Source of the DNA: Domibacillus sp. DTU_2020_1001157_1_SI_ALB_TIR_016
GTDB lineage: Bacteria > Bacillota > Bacilli > Bacillales > Domibacillaceae
Direction of reading: 5' to 3'
NCBI RefSeq assembly: GCF_032341995.1
Contig: NZ_CP135439.1
Coordinates: 2,108,001-2,172,000, forward strand
Length of the DNA stretch: 64,000 nucleotides
Shown: positions 36,180 to 57,157 of the stretch, one piece after another
How positions within the stretch are numbered: the stretch's first letter is position 1
Layout: every line of letters starts with the position of its first letter
The notes under the pieces: generated by a model
Database searches by the model: none
Told to the model about the DNA's origin: nothing
The model's input: only the letters and a program-made list of their open reading frames with translations
Program-made: the position numbers and the translations under genes

Positions 36180-37349
36180 TTATTGCGCTGCTTGTTGAAT
36201 AACATCTGGTGCATCTGTGTGGTAAACCATTTTCCAAGATTCCAAAATGTTTTCCTTCGTTACATTTAATGAAGGTACTGCAACATATGGCGGTGCTTCT
36301 TTTCCAAGCAAGGAGTACCCTGATAAAATCGCTTCAGCAATCCCTTGGTCATATGGAAGCTGTGCACCAAGCCCTTTTACAATTCCGCCTTGTGCAATAT
36401 CGAGAGCAACGTTTGTCCCAAGATCAATCGTTGTGATAACAAGGTCGTCTTTTCCTGCTGTACGGGCAGCGGAAAGCACTCCTTCAGCCGGTACATCCCA
36501 TACCGCGAAGATCCCATCTAAATCATTATTTTTTGTCAACATAGCAGATGCGATTTTTTCACCTGTATTTGGATCTGTAATACCGCTGCGTGCAACGATT
36601 TCAATGTTTGGATATTTTTCTTTAATTGTTTTTTCAAATGCTTCCGTGCGCTGGCGTGTAACAAAGAAATCTGCATCATGATAAATCACGCCGATTTTCC
36701 CTTTTTCTTCAAGCTGGTCAGCCATAATTTCTGCTGCCTCTACACCGTTGCCATAGTTATCAGCAGAAACAACGCTAACATAATCTTTCCCTGCTACTAA
36801 CCCTTGTGGTGCGTTATCCATGAAAACTAATTTTACACCTGCTGCTGCTGCTTTTTTGTACGCATCGGCTGTTGAAACAGGATCTACCGGAATACTTACG
36901 ATAATATCTGGATCTTTTGCTAGTACTGTTTCAATATCAGACACTTGCTTTTCTGCTTTGAATTGTCCATCTGTTACCGCAATGACTTCGATTCCCATCC
37001 GTTTAAAAGCGGCTTTGAGTCCATCGATTTGTGCTTTAGACCAGTCATTGCCGGCATAATGCATAACGATGGCGGCTTTATATTTTCCTTCTTTTACTTT
37101 AGCGATCTCTTCCTCTGATAAATTCAATGTTTTTGCAGAAATCGCTCCTTCCCCATTCGGACCTTTACTTAAAATCTTCGTGCCACTTGGAATGTCTTCA
37201 CTAATCGTTAAAGCGCCTGAATCTGGAAGCTCAGCTGCTTTTTGTTCTGTTTGGCCCTTATCAGAACTTGCGTTTTGGTTTCCACATCCTGCAAGAGCAA
37301 GAAAAGCACCTAAGAGCACTGTTATAAACAATAAAAACGATTTTTTCAT
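36180..37349 (-). CDS. Sugar ABC transporter substrate-binding lipoprotein (SBP2)
   Basis: A 389-residue periplasmic-binding-protein type 1 fold of the ribose/xylose class. Lipoprotein signal ends LALAGC (Cys22). The mature region includes KAAIVMHYAGNDWSKAQ, KRMGIEVIAVTDGQF, DPDIIVSIPVDPVSTADAY and GKIGVIYHDADFFV. It is clearly paralogous to the protein at 45292 and to the C-terminal domain of the kinase at 49496. It is the last intact gene of the operon; ATG 37349 follows GGAGGG. Confidence 0.9.
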   Translation of the reverse strand: MKKSFLLFITVLLGAFLALAGCGNQNASSDKGQTEQKAAELPDSGALTISEDIPSGTKILSKGPNGEGAISAKTLNLSEEEIAKVKEGKYKAAIVMHYAGNDWSKAQIDGLKAAFKRMGIEVIAVTDGQFKAEKQVSDIETVLAKDPDIIVSIPVDPVSTADAYKKAAAAGVKLVFMDNAPQGLVAGKDYVSVVSADNYGNGVEAAEIMADQLEEKGKIGVIYHDADFFVTRQRTEAFEKTIKEKYPNIEIVARSGITDPNTGEKIASAMLTKNNDLDGIFAVWDVPAEGVLSAARTAGKDDLVITTIDLGTNVALDIAQGGIVKGLGAQLPYDQGIAEAILSGYSLLGKEAPPYVAVPSLNVTKENILESWKMVYHTDAPDVIQQAAQ

Positions 37350-37445
37350 ATTAATCCCTCCATCTCCAAAGGTATAACCGCTTTCTTTTTCATTCGAAAG
37401 AGCAGCCACGGTCGTCTGTGGCATCACTCTTCCATTTAAAAAGAA

Positions 37446-39360: not shown

Positions 39361-40332
39361 TTACGCCCACCACATCTCGCCGACAGGCTCTTTAAACATG
39401 ACATCTTTTAATAATGAAATCGCTTTGCCTAGTCCTTCATCAACGGAGGCAAGCATATCTTCGTGTTCAATTGAAACAACATAATCATAACCAACCGCCC
39501 GCAGAGTACTCATAATATCTTTCCACATTTTTTCATTCTGCCCATAACCAACAGAACGGAAAGTCCACGCACGGTTTAAAATGTCGCTGTAGTGTTTTGT
39601 ATCCAGAACACCATTTACATCAATATTCGCTTGGTCTAAATACGTATCTTTTGCATGGAAGTGGTAAATGGCATTTTCTTTTCCAAGCTTTTTCACCGCT
39701 TCTACCGGATTAATTCCCTGCCAGAGAAGATGGCTTGGATCAAAATTCGCACCGATTGCTTCTCCTGCATGCTCTCTCAGCTTCAGCAGCGTGTCCGGAT
39801 TATACACAACAAAACCGGGATGCATTTCGAGTGCAATTTGATTAATCCCATGTGACTGTGCAAATTTCACTTCTTCTTTCCAGTATGGAATGACGACTTC
39901 AGTCCATTGCCAGTCCAGCATTTCCGCATACTCCGGCGGCCAGGAACACGTCACCCAGTTTGGGAATTTAGCTTCTGCATGATCACCTGGGCAGCCGGAA
40001 AAACCGTTTACAACCGGGATTTCCAGACGTTCTGCAAGCTTCACGGTTTTTTGCCAAACGGCGTGAGATTCTGCCGCGAATTTTTTGTTCGGGTGAAGCG
40101 GGTTTCCATGGCAGCTCAACCCGCTGATTGTCATTCCTCGGCTTTCTACGGCTTTTTTAAATGCCTTTATTTTCTCCGGGCTGCTTAAAAGTTCATCTGG
40201 ATCACAGTGACTATTCCCAGGGTAATTTCCAGTTCCGAGCTCTACTGCTTCCACGCCCATTTCTTTCAGCTTATCCAGCATGCCCTCAAAAGGCAGCTGT
40301 TGATATAAAACGGTAAACACACCCAGCTTCAC
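39361..40332 (-). CDS. Sugar phosphate isomerase/epimerase family TIM barrel (B)
   Basis: A 323-residue TIM barrel with the metal-binding pattern of the family: LEMHPGF (Glu), ANFDPSHLLWQG (Asp/His), YHFHAKDTYLD, and VSIEHEDML (Glu). The long CSWPPEYAEMLDWQWTEVVIPYW insertion is typical of a sub-group found with Gfo/Idh dehydrogenases. It overlaps the dehydrogenase gene upstream by four bases. A 3-keto-sugar lyase or hydratase role is plausible. Confidence 0.83.
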   Translation of the reverse strand: MKLGVFTVLYQQLPFEGMLDKLKEMGVEAVELGTGNYPGNSHCDPDELLSSPEKIKAFKKAVESRGMTISGLSCHGNPLHPNKKFAAESHAVWQKTVKLAERLEIPVVNGFSGCPGDHAEAKFPNWVTCSWPPEYAEMLDWQWTEVVIPYWKEEVKFAQSHGINQIALEMHPGFVVYNPDTLLKLREHAGEAIGANFDPSHLLWQGINPVEAVKKLGKENAIYHFHAKDTYLDQANIDVNGVLDTKHYSDILNRAWTFRSVGYGQNEKMWKDIMSTLRAVGYDYVVSIEHEDMLASVDEGLGKAISLLKDVMFKEPVGEMWWA

Positions 40333-41507
40333 AATGAAACCTCCTTAATCGACTCTACTTTCATCCATTTTTGCTGTTCATGACTTTGCAGAATAGCATC
40401 GGTAATGCACATGGAGATGTGGCCATCTTCAAATGTAGCAAACGGTGTTTCGTCATGATTCGGATCTTTGCCTTCGCGGATAAAGCTGTAAAAATTCATC
40501 ATCATATTTTTCATGGCATCCGGCCAGCCTTCATTATGGCCTCCGGGATGATGAATGAAAGCTTTTGCTTCCGGGGCAAATAACGATGGGTCCGCCATCA
40601 GCAGCTCATTTGGTTTGTCACGGTGGCCAATCCAAAGTTTCTCAGGTTCTTCCTGATTCCATTGAGCGGAGTGCTTGCTCCCATTCACTTCAAAACTTAA
40701 CCGGTTTTTTCTGCCCGCGCTCACCTGGGAGACGGTGAAAACGCCTTTTGTTCCATCCTCAAAACGGATAAGTACTGAGGCATAATCTTCTGTATCGATC
40801 GGGATATCTTCGTATTCGGCTTCTGTTAAAGCTTGACCGCCAAATGTTTCTTGTGTGGAAGACGGTTTTTTTCTGACGGGAATGACTGTCGCTAAATCCG
40901 CAAACACTTCCACAATTTTTTTGCCTGTTACATATTGAACCGTGTCGCACCAATGAGAGCCAATATCTGCGACTGCACGTGATTTACCGCCGACCTCCGG
41001 AGCCAAACGCCAATTGAAGTCGGTTTCATACAAAAGCCAGTCCTGCAAGTAGCTCCCATGCACTAAATTGATTCTGCCAAGTTCTTCTTTCTTAATCATG
41101 ATTGCCAGCTGCTTCACAATTGGGAATTGGCGGTAGTTGAAGCTCACACCATGAACAACACTGTGTTCTTTGGCAAGGGAAAGAAGTTCCGCCGATTCCA
41201 CGCTGGACATGGCCAGCGGTTTTTCCGAAATAATATGTTTTCCTGCTAGAATAATCTCTTTATTGATTGAAAAGTGAAGCTGGTTTGGGGTGCAATTATG
41301 AACCACTTCAATCTCTTCGTCCTCCAGCATATCTCTATAATCGCCATACGCTTTTGGAATACCAAGCTCAGCCGCTTTTCGTTCTGCCGATTCCTGCCCA
41401 TGCCCGGCAAGTGCCACAACATCTACAAAACCAAGTCTTCTAATCGCTTCAATATGAGTGGGACCAATAAAGCCGGTGCCAATCACGCCCACTTTTACTC
41501 TCTTCAT
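40329..41507 (-). CDS. Gfo/Idh/MocA-family oxidoreductase (second)
   Basis: A 392-residue NAD(P)-dependent sugar dehydrogenase: VGVIGTGFIGPTHIEAIRRLG nucleotide fold, HIISEKPLAMSS (catalytic Lys-Pro region), and DIGSHWCDTVQYV (active-site His). With the barrel it overlaps, it probably handles one oxidation or reduction in a 3-keto-sugar route; in the levoglucosan model it would occupy the LgdC position. Confidence 0.86.
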   Translation of the reverse strand: MKRVKVGVIGTGFIGPTHIEAIRRLGFVDVVALAGHGQESAERKAAELGIPKAYGDYRDMLEDEEIEVVHNCTPNQLHFSINKEIILAGKHIISEKPLAMSSVESAELLSLAKEHSVVHGVSFNYRQFPIVKQLAIMIKKEELGRINLVHGSYLQDWLLYETDFNWRLAPEVGGKSRAVADIGSHWCDTVQYVTGKKIVEVFADLATVIPVRKKPSSTQETFGGQALTEAEYEDIPIDTEDYASVLIRFEDGTKGVFTVSQVSAGRKNRLSFEVNGSKHSAQWNQEEPEKLWIGHRDKPNELLMADPSLFAPEAKAFIHHPGGHNEGWPDAMKNMMMNFYSFIREGKDPNHDETPFATFEDGHISMCITDAILQSHEQQKWMKVESIKEVSL

Positions 41508-41529: not shown

Positions 41530-42528
41530 TTATCGTTTGATTGCTTTTTTACCGAATGCTACAGCCAAAATAATAATTAATCCTTTAATCATCATTTGCT
41601 GGCTGACATCCAAGCCCATAATGATCAGTCCATTGTTAATCGTTCCGATCATTAAGGAACCGATCACTGTGCCAATAACTGTTCCGACTCCGCCAAAAAG
41701 ACTCGTTCCGCCGAGAATAACCGCGGCAATAACAGAAAGTTCGTCTCCTTCACCAAATGTGAAACGTCCTGCGTGCATGCGGCCTGCATAAAGCAGCCCG
41801 GCAAAGCCCGCCATAAAGCCGGAACCAAGGAAAACAAGAAGCTTAATACGCTGTGTTTTAACACCTGAGAATCTTGCGGCACTTTCATTTCCGCCTGTTG
41901 CAAGCGTTTGTCTTCCGAATGATGTTTTACGAAGTAAAAAGTGGGCAATAATGGTTGCTGCCACTGTCCAAACCAAAAGAATAGGAATTGGTCCGATATC
42001 ACCTGATCCAAATACAAAGTTGAATGTTGCATCTACAATCGGCACTGGTGCCGTGTCTGTAATCCACATCGCAAGACCTGCGACGGTTCCCATCGTACCA
42101 AGTGTCACCAGGAAGGATGGAATCGCTAGTTTTGTTACTAATAAACCATTTACTAATCCAACAAGAAGGCCTGTTCCTAAACCAACCGCTACGCCGCCGA
42201 TCATGCCAAATCCGGCTTGGATGGTTAATGCTGCTGTTAAAGAAGACAATGCGGCAATCGATCCGACAGACAGGTCAATTTCTCCTGTGCTGATAACAAA
42301 TGTCATCGCAAGGCCCATTAAAGAAATCATCGCCGTTTGACGAATGATATTAAGCAGGTTGTCTGTTGTAACAAATCCCTGATCATGCAAAGTAACTGAG
42401 AAATAAATGATGACACCGATAAAAGCAAGATAAACAATGTAGTCCCGCCAATCGAATGTTTTCTTGCGCGAAACCGTATGGCTGCCCAGAGCAACTGTAC
42501 CATTTAGATTAGAACCCTTGGATTGCAT
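41530..42528 (-). CDS. Sugar ABC transporter permease, RbsC type
   Basis: A 332-residue permease with about nine to ten membrane segments. The family landmarks GEIDLSVGSIAALSS, NGLLVTKLAIPSFLVTLGTM, TGGNESAARFSGV and GGTSLFGGVGTVIGTVIG are all present. It overlaps the ATPase gene by 20 bases. ATG 42528 (GGAGGAG upstream) is chosen over upstream in-frame starts. Confidence 0.92.
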   Translation of the reverse strand: MQSKGSNLNGTVALGSHTVSRKKTFDWRDYIVYLAFIGVIIYFSVTLHDQGFVTTDNLLNIIRQTAMISLMGLAMTFVISTGEIDLSVGSIAALSSLTAALTIQAGFGMIGGVAVGLGTGLLVGLVNGLLVTKLAIPSFLVTLGTMGTVAGLAMWITDTAPVPIVDATFNFVFGSGDIGPIPILLVWTVAATIIAHFLLRKTSFGRQTLATGGNESAARFSGVKTQRIKLLVFLGSGFMAGFAGLLYAGRMHAGRFTFGEGDELSVIAAVILGGTSLFGGVGTVIGTVIGSLMIGTINNGLIIMGLDVSQQMMIKGLIIILAVAFGKKAIKR

Positions 42529-44014
42529 GTTGTAACTCCTCCTCTGTTTCAATTTCACGTCTTTGCATTTCTTTGATAATGCGCCCTTCATGCATGACCA
42601 ATATACGGTCACTTAATGCGAGAAGCTCCGGAAGTTCTGAGGAAATGACCAGAACGGCTTTCCCGCTGTCTGCTAGTTCCCGAACTACATCAACAATTTC
42701 CGTTTTAGCTCCGATGTCCACCCCAATGGTTGGTTCATCAAGCATAAGCACCGCTGGATCATTTGCCAGCCATTTTGCCAAAACAATTTTCTGCTGATTG
42801 CCGCCGGATAATAGATTGGTTGTTTTATAAATATCGTCTGTTTTAATGTTTAGTTTTCTTACAAAGTCATTGGCCACTTTATTGGCTTTTTTATTATCAA
42901 TAAAGAAACCTTTCTGCATTTTTGATAAGATCGGCAGGATAATGTTGTCTTTTACACTATGCTCTAGAACAAGACCTTGGACACGCCGGTCTTCCGGAAT
43001 AAGAGCCAATCCTGCTTTAATAGCATCGGATGCATTTTTAACCGTTACAGGCTGGCCGTTTATAATAATATCGCCGCTGTCTTTCGGACCCGTTCCAAAG
43101 ATAGCGCTTACCGTTTCAGTACGGCCGCTTCCCATCAATCCTGCGATGCCAACAATCTCACCCGGGTACAGGTTAAAATTCACATCCTGGACTTTTGAAT
43201 CAAGTGATAAATTCTTTACTTCCAGTACAGGCGCAACGTCTTTTGCATACTCCCGTTCTTTCCATTCAAATGCTTTATCCATACCCGTTCCGACAATGTA
43301 CTGAATAACCATATCAAGATCGATTTGTTTGCAGTCTTCAGTAGCGACATGTTTCCCGTCACGTAAAATGGTAATTCGGTCACAAACTTCAAGAATCTCA
43401 TCCATACGATGTGAAATATAAATAATCGCATAGCCTTTTGATTTCAATTGATTAATAAAGGAAAATAATATTTTTGTTTCTTTTTTTGTTAAAGAAGCGG
43501 TTGGCTCGTCCATGACGAGAATTTTTGTTTCCTGTGATAATGCTTTTGCGATTTCGGTCATCTGCCAATACCCTACACCGAGATTACCGACAAGTTCGTT
43601 CGGATCAATGTCGACTTCTAGCTCTTGAAGCAAATTTCTCGTTTTTTCCACACACTCTTTATCATTTAGTAGTCCGATTGATGTTTTATCTTCTCTAGTA
43701 AGAAAAATATTTTGTGCTACTGTTAACGTAGGAATTAAGCTGAACTCCTGAAAAATCATAGATATATAATTTTTTCTTGCATCATCTGTATTGTTAATTT
43801 CAACGAGCTGGTCATCAATGTAAATTTCGCCTTGATCGGCTGTGTAAACACCTGTTAAAATTTTCATTAATGTCGATTTTCCGGCTCCGTTCCCGCCCAT
43901 GAGCGCATGAACTTCACCCTTTTTAACAGAGAAATCAACTGAATTGAGTACCGTAATTCCATTAAACGCTTTTGAGATATTTTTCATCGAAAGCATCGGC
44001 TTTTCCAATCTCAT
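42509..44014 (-). CDS. Sugar ABC transporter ATP-binding protein, RbsA/MglA type
   Basis: A 501-residue tandem ATPase. The first domain has Walker A GGNGAGKST and Walker B ILVMDEPTASL; its signature is degenerate (GVGYWQMTEIAKAL). The second has a degenerate Walker A (GLMGSGRTE) but a good signature (LSGGNQQKIVLAKWL) and LMLDEPTIGVD. This is the normal pattern for monosaccharide importers. It works with the permease at 41530 and the two binding proteins. Confidence 0.93.
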   Translation of the reverse strand: MRLEKPMLSMKNISKAFNGITVLNSVDFSVKKGEVHALMGGNGAGKSTLMKILTGVYTADQGEIYIDDQLVEINNTDDARKNYISMIFQEFSLIPTLTVAQNIFLTREDKTSIGLLNDKECVEKTRNLLQELEVDIDPNELVGNLGVGYWQMTEIAKALSQETKILVMDEPTASLTKKETKILFSFINQLKSKGYAIIYISHRMDEILEVCDRITILRDGKHVATEDCKQIDLDMVIQYIVGTGMDKAFEWKEREYAKDVAPVLEVKNLSLDSKVQDVNFNLYPGEIVGIAGLMGSGRTETVSAIFGTGPKDSGDIIINGQPVTVKNASDAIKAGLALIPEDRRVQGLVLEHSVKDNIILPILSKMQKGFFIDNKKANKVANDFVRKLNIKTDDIYKTTNLLSGGNQQKIVLAKWLANDPAVLMLDEPTIGVDIGAKTEIVDVVRELADSGKAVLVISSELPELLALSDRILVMHEGRIIKEMQRREIETEEELQHAIQGF

Positions 44015-44071: not shown

Positions 44072-45265
44072 TTATTTTGAAAGATTCACCATTTCGCCTT
44101 GTTTCGAAAGATTCACCCATTCGCCTTTTTCCGCTGATTCCAGAATCGCATCTGAAATAACGGCGATTTGGTAGCCGTCTTCAAAGTCAGGTGAGACTTT
44201 TGTATCTTCCGCAATAGATTTCATAAAGTCATATGTTTCAATAATTTTCGTTTCACCGTAGCCGATTCCAAGTGCCGGGATTGGCCATAAGCCTTCTCCG
44301 TATGGATGAGCAGGACCTGTATACACGGTTCTGAAACCACGGCTGTCGCCCGGATCATCTGAGAAGCATACCTGCAGTTCATCGCGGCGCTCATAGTTAA
44401 AGACAAGAGACCCTTTTTCACCGTGAATTTCAAATGTCAGGAAGTTGTTGCGTCCCCACGCGTTGCGGGTTGCTTCAATGCTTCCAACAGCACCATTTTC
44501 AAATTTCACAAGTGTCATGAATTCATCATCTACATCAACCGCTGCTTTTGGTACATCTTCATCTGCTTTTACGGTACCAAGCTTATCAGCGCCCCCGCTT
44601 TGAATTGGGCGTTCGCCGATCCATGTTTTTGCGACAGCGTTTACATCGGAGATCTCACCGACAAGGTAGCGGGCAAAGTCAATCACGTGTGTTCCGATAT
44701 CGCCAAGTGCACCGGAACCTGCACGGTCTTTTTGGAAGCGCCATGAAAGGGGTGAATTCGGATCAGCCGACCAGTCCTGCAGGTACGTGCCGCGGAAATT
44801 CAAAATCTCGCCCAGCTTGCCTTCTTCAATGTATTTTTTCGCCAGCGCAACCGCTGGTGTTCTGCGGTAGTTGAACGCAACCATGTGCTTTACGCCTGCT
44901 TCTTTTACGGCATCTAGCATGGTTTTTGCTTCCGCTGCATCACGCGCAAGCGGCTTTTCGGAAATAATATGCTTGCCCGCTTTAGCGGCAGCGATCGCAA
45001 TTTCAGCATGAGAATCATTTGGCGTTACAATGTCGATAATATCGATTTCCGGATCTTCCACTACTTTTCTCCAGTCTGAAGAATAGTTGTCAAACCCAAG
45101 GCGTGCTGCTGCATCTTTTGCCAATTCGTCTGTTACATCTACTACCGTGTGACGGTGTGGAATTACTGGAGCCGGCCAGAAAAACATTGGCATCCCTGCA
45201 TAAGCAAGTGCATGCGCTTTCCCCATAAATCCTCCGCCAATCATGCCTACATTAAGTTTTTTCAT
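44072..45265 (-). CDS. Gfo/Idh/MocA dehydrogenase, levoglucosan dehydrogenase-like
   Basis: A 397-residue NAD-dependent dehydrogenase: MIGGGFMGKAHALAYAGMPM, HIISEKPLARD, AFNYRRTPAVALAKKY, GTYLQDWSADPNSPLSWRF and DIGTHVIDFARYL. These blocks, especially the PMFFWPAP and the LQDWSADPNSPLSWRF segments, resemble what I recall of levoglucosan dehydrogenase (LgdA). That enzyme oxidises C3 of 1,6-anhydroglucose. The substrate assignment is from memory and unverified. GGAGG ribosome site; between the ATPase and first binding protein. Confidence 0.8.
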   Translation of the reverse strand: MKKLNVGMIGGGFMGKAHALAYAGMPMFFWPAPVIPHRHTVVDVTDELAKDAAARLGFDNYSSDWRKVVEDPEIDIIDIVTPNDSHAEIAIAAAKAGKHIISEKPLARDAAEAKTMLDAVKEAGVKHMVAFNYRRTPAVALAKKYIEEGKLGEILNFRGTYLQDWSADPNSPLSWRFQKDRAGSGALGDIGTHVIDFARYLVGEISDVNAVAKTWIGERPIQSGGADKLGTVKADEDVPKAAVDVDDEFMTLVKFENGAVGSIEATRNAWGRNNFLTFEIHGEKGSLVFNYERRDELQVCFSDDPGDSRGFRTVYTGPAHPYGEGLWPIPALGIGYGETKIIETYDFMKSIAEDTKVSPDFEDGYQIAVISDAILESAEKGEWVNLSKQGEMVNLSK

Positions 45266-45291
45266 TTTTATTCCTCCATTGTTTGTGTAAT

Positions 45292-46458
45292 TTATTGTTG
45301 AACTGCGCTTTGAATTAATTCGGGAACATCTTGGCGGTAAACAAGCTTCCAAGACTCTTCCAAGTTATCTTCTGTTACTTGTACAGCTGGTGTTGTTACA
45401 TATGAGGGCGCTTTCTTACCAAGCAAAGCATACCCGCCTAAAATGGCTTCAGCGATTCCCTGGTCATATGGAAGCTGTGCGCCAAGTCCTTTTACTGTGC
45501 CTCCGGATGCCATTTCCAGCCCAACGTTTGTACCCAGGTCTGTGGTTGTGATGACAAGATCGTCTCTTCCTGCTGTACGTGCTGCTGAAACGACTCCTTC
45601 ACCCGGCACGTCCCAGATCGCAAAGATCCCATCTAAATCATTGTGCTGGGTCAACATAGCCGACGCTACTTTTTCACCGTCGTTTGGACCTGTAATGCCT
45701 CCATGGGCGACGATTTCAATATCTGGGTATTTTTCTTTTATTGTTTCTTCAAAAGCGGTTTGGCGCTGCTTTGTTACAAAGAAATCTGCATCATGGAAAA
45801 CGACGCCAATCTTGCCTTTGCCATCAAGTTCTTTCGCCATTACTTCCGCAGCCTCTACACCATTTCCGTAGTTATCGCCTGATACAATACTGACAAAATC
45901 CTTTCCTGGCTCTAACCCTTGGGCAGTACCATCCATGAAGACTAATTTGATGCCTGCGTCAGCTGCTTTTTTGTAAGCTGCTGCAGTCGACACAGGGTCT
46001 ACTGGCACACTAACAATGATATCCGGTTTTTTCGCAGTAACTGTTTCAATATCAGAAACCTGCTTTTCTGCTTTAAATTGAGCATCTGTTACGGCAATGA
46101 CTTCAATACCCATACGATCAAAGCTTGCTTTCAGCGCATCTGTCTGGGCAGTCATGTAGTCAGTGCCCGAATAATGCATGACAAGTGCTGCTGTGTAATT
46201 GCCTTCTTTTATCTTTGCAATATCTTCTTCCGTTAATTCCAGTGTTTTCGCTGAAACAGCTTTTTCTCCAAAAGGACCTTTCCCCATAATCTCTTTATCT
46301 TCAATTTCAGGATTAATGGTTAAAGAACCCGTTTTCGCTATTTCCACTGGTTTATTTGCTGGTTCTTCCTGTTTCGCAGCTTGCTGTCCCTGACATGCCG
46401 CAAGCAAAAGGCTGCCGCTCAATAACATAGATGTTAATAATGGAGCTTTTCTTTTCAT
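45292..46458 (-). CDS. Sugar ABC transporter substrate-binding lipoprotein (SBP1)
   Basis: A 388-residue binding protein with a lipoprotein signal (LLLAAC, Cys22) and a type 1 sugar-binding fold: KGPFGEKAVSAKTLELTEED, ALVMHYSGTDYMTAQ, KPDIIVSVPVDPVSTAAAY, GKIGVVFHDADFFV. It is the paralogue of SBP2; two binding proteins for one permease suggest two ligands or affinities. The ATG at 46458 is preferred over a TTG two codons upstream. Confidence 0.9.
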   Translation of the reverse strand: MKRKAPLLTSMLLSGSLLLAACQGQQAAKQEEPANKPVEIAKTGSLTINPEIEDKEIMGKGPFGEKAVSAKTLELTEEDIAKIKEGNYTAALVMHYSGTDYMTAQTDALKASFDRMGIEVIAVTDAQFKAEKQVSDIETVTAKKPDIIVSVPVDPVSTAAAYKKAADAGIKLVFMDGTAQGLEPGKDFVSIVSGDNYGNGVEAAEVMAKELDGKGKIGVVFHDADFFVTKQRQTAFEETIKEKYPDIEIVAHGGITGPNDGEKVASAMLTQHNDLDGIFAIWDVPGEGVVSAARTAGRDDLVITTTDLGTNVGLEMASGGTVKGLGAQLPYDQGIAEAILGGYALLGKKAPSYVTTPAVQVTEDNLEESWKLVYRQDVPELIQSAVQQ

Positions 46459-46479
46459 CCCCAAGTCCCCTTTTTTCGT

Positions 46480-47304
46480 TTAGTTTGCCATTTGTGTTTT
46501 TTCAAATGACGCTAAGAAGCTTCGGCTTATTTCCGCCCCTTGCTTTGGTACCTCATAGCTGTCTAGCTCAACCGTAATCCAATCATCGTAACCGGCTTCA
46601 TTTAGAATGCGGACCATTTCCTCAAACTTCTGATGGCCTTTTCCTAAAGGAAGAAACTCGCCATTCTCATAATCTTTAAAGTGAATGTATTTAATCCGGT
46701 CTGCATATTTACGAACAACTTCTACCGGATCACCGCCGCCTGCTTCAATATGAGCCGTATCAGGGCATAAATCGATAGTTGTATGCTGCATTAACTTATC
46801 TAATTGTTCAGGCGCTTCCACATTTGTTCCAAGGTGCGGGTGATACGTTGGGATCAACCCATGTTTTTCTGCAATCTCTTGTACCTTATTAAGTGCTGTC
46901 CCCAAATCTTCGTAATCGCTTTCTAGAATACCCGCCGAACGGACAGCTCCTCCGCCGATAACTAAATGACGAGCACTAAATTCAGCAGAAAGTGCAGCTA
47001 CTTCTTCAATTTTTGTTAATTCTTCTTCCAAAATATCCGGGTAAATAAAGTTCCCGCCTGTATAAACACCAATCAAGGTTAGTTTGTATTTTGCAAGCAA
47101 CGCTTTAAATTCTTCTTTATTGTCCTTATACTGCATCAGGTTTCCATCAAAAATTTCAAATCCTTTAAAGCCGGCTTCCGAAATGTCCTTTAAAGCTTCC
47201 TCGGTAGAGCCATTCGCTAGGTAATAAAGATCTTTTATTGAAGTGACTCCGGCAGGATGACCGACAACCCCGCCCCACGTATTTGTTTGGTATCCAAATT
47301 TCAT
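46480..47304 (-). CDS. Sugar phosphate isomerase/epimerase family TIM barrel (A)
   Basis: A 274-residue TIM barrel, first gene of the operon behind two LacI-type operators. Metal-site residues appear in LVIGGGAVRS, YHPHLGTNVE, DLCPDTAHIEAGGGDP, KYIHFKDYENG and ITVELDSYE. The family includes hydroxypyruvate isomerase, inosose dehydratase and 3-keto-sugar lyases. Its leading place suggests a committed step. Confidence 0.83.
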   Translation of the reverse strand: MKFGYQTNTWGGVVGHPAGVTSIKDLYYLANGSTEEALKDISEAGFKGFEIFDGNLMQYKDNKEEFKALLAKYKLTLIGVYTGGNFIYPDILEEELTKIEEVAALSAEFSARHLVIGGGAVRSAGILESDYEDLGTALNKVQEIAEKHGLIPTYHPHLGTNVEAPEQLDKLMQHTTIDLCPDTAHIEAGGGDPVEVVRKYADRIKYIHFKDYENGEFLPLGKGHQKFEEMVRILNEAGYDDWITVELDSYEVPKQGAEISRSFLASFEKTQMAN

Positions 47305-47409: not shown

Positions 47410-47421
47410 GTAAACGTTTAC
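47410..47421. promoter_or_regulatory. LacI-type operator 1 of the sugar operon
   Basis: GTAAACGTTTAC, a perfect 12-bp palindrome with the CG centre of LacI/GalR operators, lies 106 bases before the first operon gene. Confidence 0.75.
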
Positions 47422-47514
47422 ATTCACTAAAAAAATTATCTGTAGTATAACTACTTACCTTTTCGTTAAAGCTTTTGCCATCAAAACTTCTAGTGAGGCT
47501 GTTTTATTCTGCCC

Positions 47515-47526
47515 GTAAACGTTTAC
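47515..47526. promoter_or_regulatory. LacI-type operator 2 of the sugar operon
   Basis: An identical GTAAACGTTTAC 105 bases (ten helical turns) from operator 1, just after the lacI stop. Equal phasing would allow looping. Confidence 0.75.
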
Positions 47527-47548
47527 ATCATTTTTTAAAATTTGTCTT

Positions 47549-48550
47549 TCAATGTCTGCATTTATAGCATGAATCCCGAAGAACCAGCTTGTTTTCTAAA
47601 ATGTACTGTGTTTTCTTCATTTCCTGCTTTGTCATGAGGCCTATTAAAAGTTCCATCGCTTTTGTGCCTATGTCAAAAGTCGGCTGTGAGATCGTTGTTA
47701 GTGCTGGCTTAAAGATGGCCGAAAACTTTATATTGTCAAAGCCAATAACCGATATGTCGTTCGGAACAGATAATCCTTTTCGTTCAATTGCATTAACAGC
47801 ACCAAAGGCCATCTCATCGTTTGCCGCAAAAACTGCTGTAGGTGTGTGGCTGTACGCTAAAAGTTTGAGCATCATATTCAAGCCGCTTTTATAAGAAAAG
47901 TTGCCTTCCTGCACTAATTCGGGTTCAACCTTCAGATTATACTGTGCCATCGCCTGATAAAATCCCTTCAGCCTGTCTCTGCTCAGTACGCTATTCATGG
48001 GGCCTGAGATAAAGCCTATTCTCTTGTGCCCAAGATTAATCAGATACTCGGTTGCTTTTCTTGCACCGCTGACGTTGTCAATAGAAACTGTCGGAACATT
48101 AACGCCTTCCAAGTATTCGCATGCAAGAACGACCGGATACTCAGAGGCTATTTCTTCCACGATGTCCGCTTCAATTCCTGCTGTCAGCAAAATCATTCCT
48201 GCTGCCTTTTTTTGGCGAAGTATACTTAAGTATCCCTTCTCACGTTCAGCACTATTGTCTGCATCTCCAAGCAAAACCTGGTAACCGTTTTCAAGAGCTA
48301 AAAATTCTATCCCTCTCAGCACATCGGAAAAGAATGTATTCGTAATATCCGGGACAACTACTAGAATCGTTGTTGTTTCAGACATTCGTAGCTGGCGGGC
48401 GGCTGCATTAGGTTGATAATTTAAATCTTCGATGACTTCTAATACTTTTTTGATAGTCTCCTTCGCCACCGTTTCCGGTTTGCTTAACACCCTTGATACA
48501 GTAGCAATTGAAACATTTGCTTGTTTGGCTACCTCTTTAATTCCTGGCAT
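47549..48550 (-). CDS. LacI-family transcriptional regulator
   Basis: A 333-residue repressor: DNA-binding head IKEVAKQANVSIATVSRVLSKP with hinge LNYQPNAAARQL, then a periplasmic-binding-like core (FFSDVLRGIEFLALENGY, KRIGFISGPMNS, AVFAANDEMAFGAV). It most likely controls the operon at 36180-47304 through the two palindromes and itself through a TGTAAACGTATTCA site at 48602. Confidence 0.92.
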   Translation of the reverse strand: MPGIKEVAKQANVSIATVSRVLSKPETVAKETIKKVLEVIEDLNYQPNAAARQLRMSETTTILVVVPDITNTFFSDVLRGIEFLALENGYQVLLGDADNSAEREKGYLSILRQKKAAGMILLTAGIEADIVEEIASEYPVVLACEYLEGVNVPTVSIDNVSGARKATEYLINLGHKRIGFISGPMNSVLSRDRLKGFYQAMAQYNLKVEPELVQEGNFSYKSGLNMMLKLLAYSHTPTAVFAANDEMAFGAVNAIERKGLSVPNDISVIGFDNIKFSAIFKPALTTISQPTFDIGTKAMELLIGLMTKQEMKKTQYILENKLVLRDSCYKCRH

Positions 48551-48601
48551 TTTAGGATTCTCTTTTCTTTTTTGTCTCTTGTTATTTTGCTATAACCGCA
48601 T

Positions 48602-48615
48602 TGTAAACGTATTCA
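48602..48615 (-). promoter_or_regulatory. LacI/cre-like site upstream of lacI
   Basis: TGTAAACGTATTCA shares the GTAAACGT half with the operon operators and lies 52 bases before the lacI start. It could be a self-control site or a cre. Confidence 0.45.
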
Positions 48616-48730
48616 TTTTAAGTGTCTAACCGGTTTCAAACACAGTTTTCTTCCATTCGACAAGGCATTTTCCAGGTTTCAGACCTAAAAATGATTCGTT
48701 TAAACAAAAAAAGTATAAATTTTAAAAAAT

Positions 48731-48757
48731 AAAAAAACTCAGCACCTTAGGCTGAGT
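48731..48757 (-). terminator. Terminator of the kinase-regulator unit
   Basis: ACTCAGC, a seven-base loop and GCTGAGT are followed by seven T on the minus strand, 12 bases after the response-regulator stop. Confidence 0.88.
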
Positions 48758-48768
48758 TCCATAATTTC

Positions 48769-49476
48769 TTATGACATATATCTTTGCAATTCATCGATTT
48801 TATGCTTTGAAACCTTTGCTGACCGGTCATAATCTTTAAAATATGCTTTATATCCTTGACCCGCTGCTTCAATTTTTATTAAAAGCCTCATATTAATGAT
48901 ACAGGATCTATGAGACGCTATAAACCTGGAGTCAAGAGCTTCTTCTAAGCTTGCTAACGTTTCATTTGTTTCGAATTTATTATTTCTTGTATAAATGACG
49001 GATTTGCGATCCTCTCTCTCTATAAAGATAATTTCATCAAGCGGAATAAAAATGATATTTTTGTGCTGTTTAATCGTTAAATTCTTTTTAGCAGACGGCT
49101 CTTTACCAGCTTTTAGTTTACCGGCTTGTGCAGCCCTCTCTAACGCACTGTATAAACGATTTCGCTCAATTGGCTTTAAAATATAATCAACAGCTCTTAC
49201 ATTAAATGCCTCGAGTGCATAATCGTCATGGCCGGTAGTAAAAATAACCTGCAAGGATGGAAAAAGTTCTTTACATGCTTTAACTGCTTCCATACCATCC
49301 ATTAAAGGCATTCCAATATCCACCAAAGCAATATCCGGTTTTTCTTTCGTCACATACTTGATTAATTCTTCACCGTTCGTTGCTTCTCCAACAATTTTAT
49401 AATCAGGTAAACTGCCGATAAAATATCTTAACAGTTTTCTTGAGGCTGCGTCATCCTCAGCGATTAACACTTTCAT
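48769..49476 (-). CDS. LytTR-family response regulator
   Basis: A 235-residue protein: receiver at residues 1-120 with acidic pocket EDD (7-9), phospho-acceptor Asp53 in ALVDIGMP and Lys in LKPIE; LytTR DNA-binding domain at about 133-233 (IIFIPLDEIIFIEREDRKSVIYT, FIASHRSCIINMRLL). LytTR regulators bind pairs of short direct repeats in promoters. It sits 19 bases after the hybrid kinase gene, its obvious partner. The adjacent sugar operon and lacI are the likely targets (inference). Confidence 0.92.
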   Translation of the reverse strand: MKVLIAEDDAASRKLLRYFIGSLPDYKIVGEATNGEELIKYVTKEKPDIALVDIGMPLMDGMEAVKACKELFPSLQVIFTTGHDDYALEAFNVRAVDYILKPIERNRLYSALERAAQAGKLKAGKEPSAKKNLTIKQHKNIIFIPLDEIIFIEREDRKSVIYTRNNKFETNETLASLEEALDSRFIASHRSCIINMRLLIKIEAAGQGYKAYFKDYDRSAKVSKHKIDELQRYMS

Positions 49477-49495: not shown

Positions 49496-52400
49496 TTACA
49501 CTTCTTCTTGAGCTGCTGCTTTTTGAATGATGGCTGGCGCCTCCTTGTTATAAACGAGTTTCCAGGCGTCCAGAATATTTTCTTTTGTTACTCTTAAAGA
49601 TGGGACAGCCACATAGGGCGGCGCATATTTTCCAATTAACGCATATCCTGCTAGAATGGCTTCAGCGACTCCCTGCTGGTATGGAAGCTGCGCACCCAGT
49701 CCCTTTATTAGACCGCCCTGGGCGATTTCCACTGCCACATTTAAGCCCAAATCGGCCGTTGTAATGACCAAATCATTTCTTCCTTCAGCATGAGCAGCTT
49801 TTAAGGCTCCTTCAGCTGGCACATCCCACACGACAAAGATACCATTCAAGTCCTGATGTTTTCCAATCATGGAAGCTGCTGCTTTTTGTCCATCATTCGG
49901 ACCGTCAATGCCAATGCGGTCAACAATTCGAATTTTAGGATAAGCTTCTTGTATCGTTTTTTCAAATGCTTCTGTTCTTTGTTTGGTTGCAAAAAAATCC
50001 TCTTTATAATAAATAACGCCTATATTGCCTTTTCCACCTAATTTATCAGCCATAACATGAGCGGATTCAATACCATTTCCATAGTTGTCTGAGGATACAA
50101 TACTAACATAATCTTTTCCATGCTGTAGATTCTTTGGTATATTATCCATGAATACCAGCTTTGTATTCGCCTGGGCTGCTTTTTTATATATGCTTTCCAT
50201 TCGTGCCGGTTTTACAGGGATACTTATAAGTATATCCGGCCTTTGGGCTAAAATGGCTTCAATATCCGCCACTTGCTTTTCCCAGTCAAATTGGGCATCC
50301 GTTACCGCTATGATCTCAATCCCCATTTTTTCAAAAGTGGCTTTTACTCCTTCCACTTGGGACCTTGACCAATCGCTTCCGCCATAGTGCATGGCGATGG
50401 CTGCTTTGTAGTTCTTTTTCTTGATTTTCTTCAAATCTTCTAAAGATAACTGGAGTGTTTTTGCGGAGACAGCTTCTTCCCCGTAAGGTCCTGTGCTTAA
50501 AATGTTATGATCTGGGATATTTTGATAAATTGTTTTATTTAACGTTTCCTGCACGACTGTTAAAAACTCTTTTACATTTATGGGTTTTGTCACATAGTTA
50601 TCAAACCCTTTAGCCAAGGCATATTGAATATCCACTGGCATCGCATTTGCACTGACTGCAATAACGGCAATATCCTTCGTTTGTTCATTCCTTTTTAGCC
50701 TGTCAAAAACTTCGTAACCATGAATATCGGGGAGATTAATATCAAGCAAAATTAAATCCACTTTTTTCTTCGCTGCGAGTTCTAATCCTTTTTTTCCAGT
50801 GGGGGCTGATAAGAGCGTAAAGGAAGGCTGCGATTCAATAATGTTACTTACTAAATGAAAATTGGCCTTATTATCTTCGATATAGAGCAAGCGGTAGTGC
50901 TCTGCTTTATCATTGCTTACAGTACGTGGTTCCACCTGCTCACCCCACCTGACAGCGGCTTTTAAATTAGTTGGAACGGGCAGACTAAAAGAAAAATCAC
51001 TTCCTTTTCCTTTAGTGCTTGTCACACTAATATCCCCTCCCATTAAGTGTACAAGCTGTTTAACGAGAGACAAGCCGATGCCTGTTCCTGCTTCCTTTGT
51101 GCCTTCGATTCGATAGAACGGAACAAATATTTTAGTATATTCTTCTTTTGAAAGCCCTATACCTGTATCCACGATATGAACAACCTGCTCGCTCCCTTTT
51201 TGATAGCAATCAATATTTATTTTTCCGTAATCCTTGTTATACTTAATGGCATTATCCAGAAGGTTAAGGATTATTTGTTTAAGGCGAATTGGATCAGCAA
51301 GAACTAAGGTGTTTTGAAAGGGAGTTAATTGATTATGAATGCTTATGTTCTTTTTCTTTGCCAGCGGCTGAACAATATTGATGCATTCGTTCATAACGGT
51401 AAGAAGATTAACCTCATCTATTGAAATTTTCAAATTGCCTGTTTCGATTCTCGATAAATCCAATACTTCATTTACTAATTCTAGTAAATGTCTTCCTCCA
51501 TTTAAAATTTCCTGAACAAAGTCTTGCTGCGTTTCGGTTAATCCCTCTTCCACTTCCAAAAGCTGAGCAAAGCCAAGAATGCCATTTAGCGGCGTACGGA
51601 GCTCATGGCTCATTTTAGACAGAAAGTCCGATTTAGCTACATTTGCTTTTTCAGCTTCTTCTTTTGCTTGAATAATCATTTTTTCCATTCTTTTGCTTTC
51701 AGTCACATCTTCAAAACCCCACAAATAACCATAATCTTCGTTTTCCTTATTAAGTGGAACACAGTTACACTGCAGTATGACAGTTTGATGGACTTCAATC
51801 TCTTTTGCTATGCTGTTCTGATTTCCGAGCTTTTCAGTTTCCAGCTCATTCATTTCTTCTTCAAAAAAGCTATGTAGGTCCGGAGCATGATGTCCAATGT
51901 ATAAATCAATCTCGCCGTCTAACTTGAACATTTCATAAAACTTCTTGTTCATAAGCCTAATCTTTTTATTTCGATCTGTCACAATAATTCCGCTGTCCAG
52001 CCGATCAATCAAATTGCGCTGAAAAGCGTAAGAATCCATTAATTTTCTTTCTTGTTGTTTTTGAAATGTAATTTCGGATAGTGTCACAAGGGCAGAACGT
52101 TCATACTTACCCGGTAATGTAAGCGGGTTAGAATTAACAGAAAGCCACTTTGTTTCCTTGTTTTTATCTTTTACTCCTAATATAAAATCTTTAATAGGAG
52201 TGCCATTCCGCTGGGTAATGACCCCCGGCAGCTCTGAATAAGGAATCGTTGAGCCGTTTTCTTTTATGTACTCCTGATTTAATTCCTTCATAGAAGATTC
52301 TGTAAAATCACCTGTTTTAATCCTAAGCATTTTGTTTGCGCTTTCATTAAGCGTGATGATTTCTCCCCCTGTTTCAATCAGTACCGCTTCGGACATTGTC

Positions 52401-52807
52401 CCAAGAACCGTCCGATATAAATTTTCTTTTTGTCGGATCTCTTCTTCCATCTTTTTTCTTTTTGTGATGTCAATACACGTTCCGACTATTTCAACCACTT
52501 TCCCTTCTGAAACCAAAGGTCTTAAATATGTCACATACTGTATATCATTGTACACACCTTCGTATTTGACAAAACGGCCTTCCCACGCTTTTTCGTAATA
52601 TGTAATTAATAAGTTTGCCATCTCAATGTCGTCTGGATACACTTCATATAATGTTTTTCCAATAAGCCCTTCTGGGTGAAAATTCATTTTATAAAGTAAT
52701 TCGCCTTCAGAAAACGTATGGATAAACTTGTTATTTTTGCGTATAAACTTAAATATCATTCCCGTGTCCTGAAAGCCTTCCTCTGAAACATATCCCGAAT
52801 CCTTCAT
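49496..52807 (-). CDS. Soluble hybrid histidine kinase fused to a sugar-binding-protein domain
   Basis: An 1103-residue single frame. Order: PAS (about 10-118), PAS (125-250), PAS (258-375), HisKA with His401 in MSHELRTPLNG, HATPase (N box LLDNAIKYN near 516, DTGIGL 547, GTGIGLS 574), receiver (637-755, Asp689 in LILLDINLPD, Lys741), then a type 1 sugar-binding-protein domain (about 768-1095). The last part matches the mature SBP1 and SBP2 of the next operon almost end to end (for example ILSTGPYGEEAVSAKTL, MHYGGSDWSRSQ, FVVWDVPAEGAL) but follows a receiver and has no signal peptide. No membrane segment is seen, so sensing should be cytosolic. GGAGAG site at 52807. Confidence 0.93.
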   Translation of the reverse strand: MKDSGYVSEEGFQDTGMIFKFIRKNNKFIHTFSEGELLYKMNFHPEGLIGKTLYEVYPDDIEMANLLITYYEKAWEGRFVKYEGVYNDIQYVTYLRPLVSEGKVVEIVGTCIDITKRKKMEEEIRQKENLYRTVLGTMSEAVLIETGGEIITLNESANKMLRIKTGDFTESSMKELNQEYIKENGSTIPYSELPGVITQRNGTPIKDFILGVKDKNKETKWLSVNSNPLTLPGKYERSALVTLSEITFQKQQERKLMDSYAFQRNLIDRLDSGIIVTDRNKKIRLMNKKFYEMFKLDGEIDLYIGHHAPDLHSFFEEEMNELETEKLGNQNSIAKEIEVHQTVILQCNCVPLNKENEDYGYLWGFEDVTESKRMEKMIIQAKEEAEKANVAKSDFLSKMSHELRTPLNGILGFAQLLEVEEGLTETQQDFVQEILNGGRHLLELVNEVLDLSRIETGNLKISIDEVNLLTVMNECINIVQPLAKKKNISIHNQLTPFQNTLVLADPIRLKQIILNLLDNAIKYNKDYGKINIDCYQKGSEQVVHIVDTGIGLSKEEYTKIFVPFYRIEGTKEAGTGIGLSLVKQLVHLMGGDISVTSTKGKGSDFSFSLPVPTNLKAAVRWGEQVEPRTVSNDKAEHYRLLYIEDNKANFHLVSNIIESQPSFTLLSAPTGKKGLELAAKKKVDLILLDINLPDIHGYEVFDRLKRNEQTKDIAVIAVSANAMPVDIQYALAKGFDNYVTKPINVKEFLTVVQETLNKTIYQNIPDHNILSTGPYGEEAVSAKTLQLSLEDLKKIKKKNYKAAIAMHYGGSDWSRSQVEGVKATFEKMGIEIIAVTDAQFDWEKQVADIEAILAQRPDILISIPVKPARMESIYKKAAQANTKLVFMDNIPKNLQHGKDYVSIVSSDNYGNGIESAHVMADKLGGKGNIGVIYYKEDFFATKQRTEAFEKTIQEAYPKIRIVDRIGIDGPNDGQKAAASMIGKHQDLNGIFVVWDVPAEGALKAAHAEGRNDLVITTADLGLNVAVEIAQGGLIKGLGAQLPYQQGVAEAILAGYALIGKYAPPYVAVPSLRVTKENILDAWKLVYNKEAPAIIQKAAAQEEV

Positions 52808-53095
52808 TTGATTCTCTCCTCACTTGTTAAAAAACGAAATAAAAGTAAAAAAACCTTAACAGTAATTCTGGCATTGGCAAGGCTGAATGACAACCCTTTC
52901 CTTAAAAAACAATTTCTTATTGGCTTGTTTTAAACTAAATGAGATAAGGTTTTGAACGTTCTCCTTGGGCTGCAACATTGATTTCTTTTAATTCTCCTTC
53001 TTCAAGTAAAGATGTATCGATATTGTACTTACAGCTGTATAGAAAAAGTACATTATTATCTTTACGCTCAAATAAAGATGGAAAGGAGAATGCAA
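52808..53095. other. Region between the kinase gene and the integrase fragment
   Basis: Mostly non-coding. A minus-strand frame (about 53027-52935) reads DTSLLEEGELKEINVAAQGE and ends in TAG; it looks like the tail of a lost gene that I cannot identify. This is also the left border of the prophage relic. Confidence 0.4.
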
Positions 53096-53361
53096 ATGGC
53101 CAGTATTCGCAAGTATAAAAAAAGCGGTGAGAAAAAAGTGTATTATGAATTCCGCATTCGTTATAAAGACCCTATAACACATAAGTATAAAGAAAAATCA
53201 AAGAGAGGTTTTACGTCGGCAATTGAGGCTCAAATTGCTGCTGCAGAAGAAGAAAAAAGAATTTTGGAAGGCTTTGAAGTCAATGAAAAAGTATATACCC
53301 TGGAATCATTCTTAACAAACTGGCTGCTTGAGTACAAAAAAAGGTTCGGTCCGTAAAAACC
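53096..53361 (+). pseudogene. Phage/ICE tyrosine integrase, N-terminal fragment
   Basis: ATG 53096 behind AAAGGAGA opens the arm-type DNA-binding domain of a Tn916/phage integrase (ASIRKYKKSGEKKVYYEFRI, KRGFTSAIEAQIAAAEEE) and the start of the core-binding domain (YTLESFLTNWLLEYKK). In an A-run the frame shifts; the correct continuation KKGSVRKN lies in another frame. About 85 of some 370 residues remain before the junction with DUF2213, so it is inactive. Confidence 0.8.
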
Positions 53362-53770
53362 GCTGCTCTATAATATCGCTCATGAAGCCGATACTAATTT
53401 CACTTTGTTCCCCGCTGAAAATACGGTCCATTAAAGCAGCATCCGTTATCGTCATTGTGACAACCAGCATGCCACCTTCCACCCGGCTGTCCGTGTGTGA
53501 CATTCCTTTTGAATAGCGGCTAACGTTTTCAACCGTCACCGCTTCATTTGGATGCCCGTCTGTGACCGGTTTAGATCGAGCGGAGAAAATAGCTAAATCA
53601 CTGAATACTTCATCCGGCAACTTTGCTTCATACTGAATCGCCCCGTCTTGCCTTTGATAAGGGAAAACCCCTGGCCGAGTAATAGGAGCTGTCACGGTTA
53701 AAAAGCCAGCTGAATCTTTTTTCAGCATGGAATCTGTAATCAGCATGCGGTCATAACGCTGTACCTTCAC
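53362..53770 (-). pseudogene. DUF2213 phage protein, C-terminally truncated
   Basis: GTG 53770 behind AAAGGAGGTGAG gives a DUF2213 N-terminal domain: VKVQRYDRMLITDSM, APITRPGVFPYQRQDG, KPVTDGHPNEAVT, YSKGMSHTDSRVEGG and SEISIGFMSDI. Family members are phage prohead-protease or scaffold-region proteins that follow the portal and minor head genes. The homology stops near 53362, where the integrase fragment begins in the opposite direction. Confidence 0.75.
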
Positions 53771-53794
53771 AATGTTCTCACCTCCTTTTAAGAC

Positions 53795-53819
53795 AATAAA
53801 AAAAGACCAATTTCGGTCT
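53795..53819 (-). terminator. Terminator-like hairpin before DUF2213
   Basis: AGACC-GAAATT-GGTCT with a following T-run on the minus strand, just upstream of the DUF2213 ribosome site. Such hairpins after small genes are common in phage head modules. Confidence 0.6.
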
Positions 53820-53940
53820 CGAAGCATTTTTAACAGAAGTTTATTTGTTTTAAGAAAGGTTATTGGATATATTATATAATTTAGAAATATTTTATAGATT
53901 GCAATAATTTGAGTTTACTTATCAATACAGCGGACAGAAG

Positions 53941-57153: not shown

Positions 57154-57157
57154 CTAT

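Follow-up and report, generated by a model that had tools for sequence, protein, structure and literature searches.

The window analysed here is a 64,000-nucleotide stretch of the genome of Domibacillus sp. DTU_2020_1001157_1_SI_ALB_TIR_016 (GCF_032341995.1, contig NZ_CP135439.1, positions 2,108,001 to 2,172,000 of the forward strand). It contains a gene for a hybrid histidine kinase that carries a sugar-binding-protein (SBP) domain at its C-terminus, next to a LytTR response regulator and an operon assigned below to levoglucosan (lgd) catabolism (Table 1). The kinase is encoded by a single, uninterrupted ATG-to-stop frame, and Pfam identifies, in order, PAS_4 in two stretches (the best at residues 41-118), PAS_8 (262-322), HisKA (391-457), HATPase_c (505-612), Response_reg (641-752) and Peripla_BP_4 (803-1048; 137 bits against a cut-off of 35.1). 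Since HisKA, HATPase_c and receiver stand in one chain with their catalytic residues intact, the protein is a hybrid histidine kinase. The residues were compared across 11 orthologues, with genome G013 left out; the first G box of HATPase_c, DTGxG, was also kept in 11/11, its third and last positions being variable. PAS content differs among lineages, giving proteins of 845 to 1103 amino acids, while the HisKA-HATPase-receiver-SBP part is constant.

The highest hydropathy over 19 residues in ten fusions was 1.40, and a value of 1.6 was reached in none of the 11 fusions tested (these ten plus that of G1147, G013 being outside the set), which indicates that a membrane segment is missing. A strict lipobox pattern occurs in 46 of 53 free relatives, and the fusions, having no hydrophobic segment, show no export signal. 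An earlier reading of the locus made from the sequence alone had described one uninterrupted frame from kinase to binding protein and a soluble product; the frame itself, full-length orthologues and fusions in five further genera bear out the first of these claims, and the hydropathy scan the second. Its further idea, a sensor of imported sugar that would gate its own receiver, is a hypothesis; levoglucosan as the candidate ligand, the candidate DNA target and the independent LacI-SBP fusion described below were not part of that reading.

Table 1. Positions of the kinase gene, its domains, the adjacent operon and related fusions elsewhere (window positions unless a locus is named)
Feature	Position	Strand	Remarks
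Hybrid histidine kinase with C-terminal SBP domain	49496..52807	(-)	1103 amino acids
N-terminal PAS region	51842..52687	(-)	Pfam PAS matches, residues 41 to 322
HisKA	51437..51637	(-)	H-box SKMSHELRTPLNG, identical in 11/11 orthologues compared
HATPase_c	50972..51295	(-)	N box and GTGIGLSLV identical in 11/11 orthologues
Receiver domain	50552..50887	(-)	Phospho-acceptor Asp (LILLDINLPD) and Lys (TKP) kept in 11/11
Complete SBP domain	49511..50533	(-)	Residues ~759-1099, without signal peptide
LytTR response regulator, likely partner	48769..49476	(-)	Receiver and LytTR domains
Terminator-like hairpin between regulator and lacI	48734..48760	(-)	1 found in region; shuffles average 1.2
Candidate LytTR binding site, half-sites	48635..48705	(-)
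Promoter-like TAGACA-17-TACAAT upstream of lacI	48600..48628	(-)	2 promoter-like sites in region; shuffles average 3.9
LacI-family repressor	47549..48550	(-)
Two palindromic LacI-type operators	47410..47527 (47515-47527, 47410-47422)	(-)	TGTAAACGTTTAC
AP_endonuc_2 TIM-barrel protein, LgdB1-like by position	46480..47304	(-)
Sugar-binding lipoprotein SBP1	45292..46464	(-)	58% identical to fused domain
Levoglucosan dehydrogenase (LgdA)	44072..45352	(-)	NF052479, 757.5 bits against a cut-off of 650
Sugar ATP-binding cassette (ABC) transporter ATPase	42509..44014	(-)
Sugar ABC transporter permease	41530..42612	(-)
Second Gfo/Idh/MocA dehydrogenase, LgdC-like by context	40329..41507	(-)	191.7 bits, below LgdA cut-off
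Second sugar-binding lipoprotein SBP2	36180..37427	(-)	65% identical to fused domain
LacI-family repressors with extra C-terminal SBP domain, lgd-like operons	L080:7169-9292; L081:11495-13618; L082:12018-14066; L083:6181-8208
LacI-family repressors with extra C-terminal SBP domain (continued)	L084:11014-13047; L085:7824-9812; L086:6730-8751

Origin and distribution of the fused domain

The C-terminal domain resembles SBP1 and SBP2 of the adjacent operon, both of which have a lipobox, while the next-closest binding protein of the host genome is only 24% identical to it. At the junction the mature binding-protein sequence starts at about residue 760 (TIYQNIPDHNILSTGPYGEEAVSAKTL in the window; consensus of a 45-row alignment, TINQxIPDxxILSKGPxGExAVSAKTL), and therefore no added linker is seen after the receiver. 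The alignment with the operon lipoproteins proposed from the sequence alone does extend to the C-terminus; its start was placed too late, the match beginning about ten residues earlier at TIYQNIPD. The accompanying proposal, that the domain was recruited after the signal peptide, agrees with the junction alignment, the hydropathy and the phylogeny.

The phylogenetic tree was built from 70 binding-protein domains and includes 10 of the 12 known kinase-fused copies; two fragments and a frame truncated where its locus stops (L091:18824, L067 and L016, the last being the fusion of G013) were left out of both tree and pocket counts, as was the fusion of G1147, which was found later. The ten kinase-fused domains form one clade (support 100/97) that lies within the free lgd-type binding proteins; nearest to it stands the free binding protein of G562's own operon (100/97). 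The topology indicates that the kinase-fused domain arose once, from lgd binding proteins.

The 12 genomes with the fusion (G000, G009, G011, G013, G015, G018, G075, G184, G214, G355, G562 and G1147) span six genera, five families and two orders, all within Bacilli. A scan of named genomes, covering close relatives, gave full-length orthologues in D. robiginosus and Domibacillus indicus (97%) and in D. enclensis (78%), all three sitting inside this total. A receiver-plus-SBP query was matched over its whole length in 6 of 24 genomes of a family sample (the window's own included), 9 of 397 of an order sample (four outside the genus), 2 of 398 of a class sample (one being the window's own) and, the window's own genome excepted, in none of the 398 of a phylum sample; four candidates were scored per genome in the last three samples, so that distant fusions may have escaped detection. 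Of 16 genomes in the surroundings of G355, three (G1147, G355 and G184) have the fusion, and no additional one was found around G562 (4 genomes) or G214 (7 genomes). Contamination estimates were 7-9% for G075, G214, G562 and G1147, each fusion lying on a contig of at least 160 kb. Plasmid records contained free binding proteins only, with 0 of 55 covering 80% of receiver plus SBP. In G012, which belongs to the same species as the window's genome, no receiver-plus-SBP match was obtained at E 1e-25, and the kinase locus thus seems to vary between strains.

Ratios of nonsynonymous to synonymous substitution rates (Ka/Ks) were computed for eight pairs, the most distant of which is close to saturation at silent sites, and ranged over 0.12-0.17 in the SBP domain, 0.04-0.24 in the junction, 0.07-0.18 in the receiver, 0.04-0.14 in the kinase core and 0.10-0.36 in the PAS region. 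These values point to purifying selection across the junction and the SBP domain.

The neighbouring operon and the LytTR regulator

Levoglucosan is a sugar formed when wood burns. The operon is identified as a levoglucosan operon by its LgdA, which exceeds the NCBIfam cut-off (Table 1). Counterparts were tested in two further fusion genomes and exceed it as well (761 and 762 bits). The true start of LgdA is probably the ATG at residue 30, where the family match begins. TIM-barrel and second Gfo/Idh/MocA genes are present as candidates for lgdB1, lgdB2 and lgdC, and were assigned by position and context. In the descriptions of lgd loci from Bacillus smithii and others (PMC7676230; PMC10066097), lgdA is likewise accompanied by an ABC importer, a binding protein and LacI, and the TIM-barrel and second Gfo/Idh/MocA genes of the window's operon are in keeping with these loci. 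The regulators mentioned there are LacI in PMC7676230 and ROK, LytTR, PucR and LacI in PMC10066097, which lists LytTR regulators among the lgdA neighbours; the term 'histidine kinase' occurs 0 times in the main texts of both. According to the pathway outlined in PMC10066097, the lgd intermediates arise inside the cell; LgdA oxidises levoglucosan after its import by the ABC transporter, and therefore free levoglucosan should exist in the cytosol.

Some 11 kb ahead of the window, the host genome (G000) holds a second lgd cluster (L139:5082-9184, G000:C2), which is partly decayed and whose lgdA copy is 99% identical. By eye, its lacI is apparently truncated, its repeats and LacI-type operators are intact, and a transporter-like and a transposase-like gene lie nearby. 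A mobilizable IncR plasmid from Klebsiella pneumoniae (L096, NZ_CP063938.1) carries a further lgd-like cluster, located near insertion sequences.

The LytTR regulator was found at no less than 63% identity in 12/12 fusion genomes, adjoining the kinase in 11; in G075 it occupies the opposite end of the cluster. In 27 genomes with an lgd-type binding protein where no fusion was seen, the best match to the regulator reached 61%. This co-occurrence supports the pairing already suggested by the sequence-only reading, and the regulator is likely the partner of the kinase. Its candidate binding site comprises the half-sites GTTTAAA (48699-48705), GTCTGAA (48678-48684, 21 bp on) and GTTTGAA (48635-48641, 43 bp on), upstream of a promoter-like sequence before lacI. 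The -35 and -10 elements of this sequence are conserved in the alignment from which the repeat pattern was taken, and promoter-like sites are no more frequent in the region than in shuffles. For the LytTR regulators treated in the relevant part of PMC6193735, which likewise consist of receiver and LytTR domains, 9-bp repeats with a 12-bp spacer, and hence a 21-bp period, are reported just upstream of the promoter; the systems described there have membrane-protein partners, whereas the sensor here is a soluble hybrid kinase. Regulator loci were also scanned in 10 genomes that lack the fused domain, and in two of them (G180 and G125) the same 21-bp pair lies ~0.1-0.6 kb downstream of a related LytTR regulator. 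Genes of ~690 amino acids beside related LytTR regulators had been considered CstA/BtsT transporters; this identification was rejected, as Pfam assigned three of those tested to FapA and one to GGDEF-EAL.

Binding pocket, proposed signalling and rival explanations

The SBP part was predicted mostly at a predicted local distance difference test (pLDDT) score above 90, and the receiver part at a low ~45-65, probably because few alignment rows cover the receiver. The best PDB match of the predicted SBP part was the ribose-binding protein 2ioy (template modelling score 0.93 on the target), and the prediction, together with homology to Peripla_BP_4, points to a complete bilobed fold with a sugar pocket. 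For pocket mapping, we take the ribose contacts to be those of the E. coli ribose-binding protein (RbsB); the two ribose pockets are described as identical in the pertinent part of PMC2315655. The equivalents of five contacts, D888, R944, W994, D1019 and Q1040, are identical in 10/10 fused and 47/47 close free proteins, and position 889 is N in 10/10 fused and 32/47 free; nothing aligns with F164 of the ribose-binding protein in fused or free proteins. Column 940, equivalent to the pocket-lining RbsB Ala137, changes from V in 47/47 free to A in 10/10 fused proteins, and therefore ligand specificity or affinity may differ. Together with Trp842 (at least 9/10), Ala940 (10/10) distinguishes the fused clade from close free proteins (codons at 50284 and 49990), and the two residues are possible signs of altered ligand affinity.

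Of 119 columns conserved in free proteins, 12 are changed in the fused clade, against 0-6 of 110-127 in each of five free control clades; the excess over the pooled controls (16/595) has a p of 0.0008, and that over the most divergent single control (6/127) is not significant (p 0.14). Three of the 12 (866, 868 and 869) lie in one loop, which reads PVDPVST in most free proteins and, among the six commonest fused forms listed, PVKPARM, PVNPARM, PVDPELT or PVDPVLT. Column 866 aligns with RbsB Asp67, the surface around which presumably serves docking to partners, and is D in five of the ten fused copies, K in three (the window's included) and N in two. D67R is a studied mutant of the ribose-binding protein, according to the title of PDB 1ba2.

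A second fusion of the same family was found in seven genomes, in LacI-family repressors of 662-707 amino acids encoded in operons with lgdA-like, transporter and binding-protein genes (Table 1). In 6/6 of these proteins submitted to Pfam (of seven), the order is LacI helix-turn-helix, LacI effector domain and Peripla_BP_4, the last, extra domain sharing 32-38% identity with the SBP domain of the window's kinase. One such operon was searched in NCBIfam, where one LgdA-like protein passes the cut-off (667 bits) and the other fails (598). In an order sample of 299 genomes, three have a LacI-SBP fusion at E <1e-90. The seven domains form a separate clade (100/100) on long branches, with exact placement unsure. 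The GPxGE segment of the mature binding protein also occurs at their junction, and the equivalents of R944, W994, D1019 and Q1040 are kept in 7/7, that of D888 being T or N. Kinase and LacI fusions are thus alike in retaining the N-terminal GPxGE segment, in keeping most of the pocket and in a changed Asp67-equivalent loop. The tree and the domain orders indicate that, on at least two independent occasions, a member of the binding-protein family was attached C-terminally to a cytosolic regulator, and these events provide the strongest argument for an indoor-sensor role of the family.

We assign a probability of about 0.6 to the reading of the protein as a cytosolic levoglucosan sensor kinase that would control its own catabolic operon; we infer its ligand, binding in the cytosol, the gating, the route of phosphotransfer, binding of the regulator to the repeats and the direction of regulation. 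Levoglucosan would enter unmodified via the ABC importer and, inside the cell, would close the C-terminal Venus-flytrap domain, the putative specific input of the kinase. Closure would shift the kinase/phosphatase balance of the HisKA-HATPase-receiver core, and the PAS domains would contribute a further input of a general kind. Phosphate would reach the LytTR regulator either straight from the kinase or by way of an unlinked histidine phosphotransfer (HPt) protein. The regulator would then bind the phased repeats upstream of the lacI promoter and control lacI, acting together with LacI at its two operators; control would probably extend to the lgd operon by read-through, because the search for terminator-like hairpins gave none in the interval from lacI to the lgdB1-like gene.

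Several observations weigh against this proposal. The assignment to levoglucosan depends on LgdA and genome context, column 940, equivalent to a pocket-lining position, is changed, and Pfam detects no HPt domain in the kinase, the protein searched for it. Relatives of the kinase that lack the SBP domain and are paired with LytTR regulators carry PAS or Cache inputs, and by analogy the SBP domain may only tune an existing input of this type. The repeats speak for the proposal, with reservations. Exact GTYTVAW pairs at a 21-bp phase stand upstream of lacI in 7 of 8 regions, compared with 15 of 16,000 dinucleotide-shuffled sequences, a figure that flatters the repeat because the pattern was picked after viewing the alignment and because the regions are close kin (three from Domibacillus and two from one other genus). 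In the eighth region, that of G562, the half-sites are 42 bp apart rather than 21; G1147 has the kinase-regulator pair and no exact repeat in the loci examined. When all loci were scanned, the exact pair was present in 10/12 fusion genomes, these two being without it; its absence from the 5 fusion-negative operons examined (out of 27 such genomes) is a further point in favour. A scan of periods 10-39 at 7-of-8 identity does not single out 21 (2/8 regions, against up to 4 at other periods), and a direct-repeat search by an 8-of-9 rule at periods 20-23 returned scattered matches only; of the patterns tried, the degenerate half-site GTYTVAW alone brought out the 21-bp phase. The half-site is also unlike the ACCnnTTAn-type half-sites presented in PMC6193735. 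Throughout G000 the GTYTVAW pair has 15 matches against 4 for a reversed control, and many of the 15 need not be real sites; one of those outside the kinase locus lies upstream of the second, partly decayed lgd cluster.

Three other explanations were considered. Instead of levoglucosan, the domain might bind another compound of the cytosol, for example 3-keto-levoglucosan, a keto-glucose intermediate or glucose; the kinase would then report pathway flux and not substrate. The intermediates are made inside the cell, as described for the pathway in PMC10066097, and the replacement at column 940 in every fused copy would suit a changed ligand; the five contact equivalents are nonetheless the same as in the 47 close free proteins, and we regard this explanation as unlikely. 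Rather unlikely, too, is that the domain acts as a protein-protein module, docking to another lgd protein or dimerising, with the kinase sensing via PAS alone. The PAS or Cache inputs of related kinases and the excess of changed conserved columns in the fused clade speak for such a module, whereas the polar pocket positions are intact in 10/10, the SBP part stays constant while PAS content varies, and the LacI-SBP fusion recruited the same family independently.

That a binding protein was joined to the kinase as a non-functional remnant or by an assembly artefact is extremely improbable, and nothing was found in favour of it: chance or assembly error is excluded by the orthologues in Domibacillus and the fusions in five further genera, no stop codon interrupts the matched stretch in any of the 12 genomes from six genera, and junction and domain appear to be under purifying selection. 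A cytosolic levoglucosan sensor is preferred to these explanations.

Comparison with known sensors

The PAS-HisKA-HATPase-receiver order is that of ArcB/TorS/LuxQ-type hybrid kinases, and the top NCBIfam alignments of the kinase include TorS, LuxQ and ArcB, all below cut-off; unlike these, the kinase here has no membrane segment and no HPt domain, and carries a binding-protein domain after the receiver. The periplasmic-binding-protein (PBP) fold likewise gives ligand input to histidine kinases in EvgS, a Venus-flytrap kinase, and in VirA-ChvE and LuxQ-LuxP, whose kinases receive the signal from a separate binding protein. The LacI, CcpA and RbsR repressors use the fold to sense sugar in the cytosol; these bind DNA and are not kinases, and their PBP domain is of the LacI branch, whereas the LacI-SBP fusions carry both domains. 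BvgS is also presented as a Venus-flytrap kinase (PMC4352136). In all these kinase systems the fold is extracytoplasmic and N-terminal or resides in a separate periplasmic protein, while here it belongs covalently to the kinase chain, stands at the C-terminus and lacks an export signal; an N-terminal extracytoplasmic PBP followed by a membrane segment, as in BvgS, is not found in this kinase. PBP-clan domains are termed periplasmic in the pertinent passage of PMC8846402.

The expectation that a receiver followed by Peripla_BP_4 is rare in kinases holds among the matches listed for 61 Bacilli genomes, where 1 of 150 lies in a frame longer than 450 amino acids, namely the kinase gene itself. No description of a kinase with a cytosolic or C-terminal binding-protein domain, and no work linking levoglucosan, a histidine kinase and a regulator, was found among the open-access papers listed. 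The suggestion that the architecture is undescribed therefore stands within that literature; beyond it absence is not proven, as no InterPro-wide architecture search was made.

Known Venus-flytrap kinases sense outside the membrane. If the proposed reading is correct, a cytosolic SBP domain placed C-terminally after the receiver would give a kinase a novel route of ligand input, one for which ligand, DNA site and pathway all have concrete candidates. With the parallel LacI fusion, the conversion of a binding protein into an indoor sensor becomes a testable evolutionary route and an idea for biosensor design. The chances are about even that transport binding proteins have been drawn indoors as ready-made sensors at least twice in lgd operons, into a hybrid kinase and into LacI, the kinase being a cytosolic, C-terminally gated anhydrosugar sensor that integrates PAS signals.

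Directly past the kinase gene, prophage structural genes for head protease, head morphogenesis, portal and terminase occupy 53312-58453, preceded by what by eye is an integrase-like N-terminal fragment (53012-53356, + strand), which PHROGs did not confirm. Among the head genes, on the strand opposite to the fused kinase, lies a sensor kinase of 368 amino acids (53941-55047, + strand), which at its N-terminus shares 38% identity with the first PAS region of the SBP-bearing kinase.

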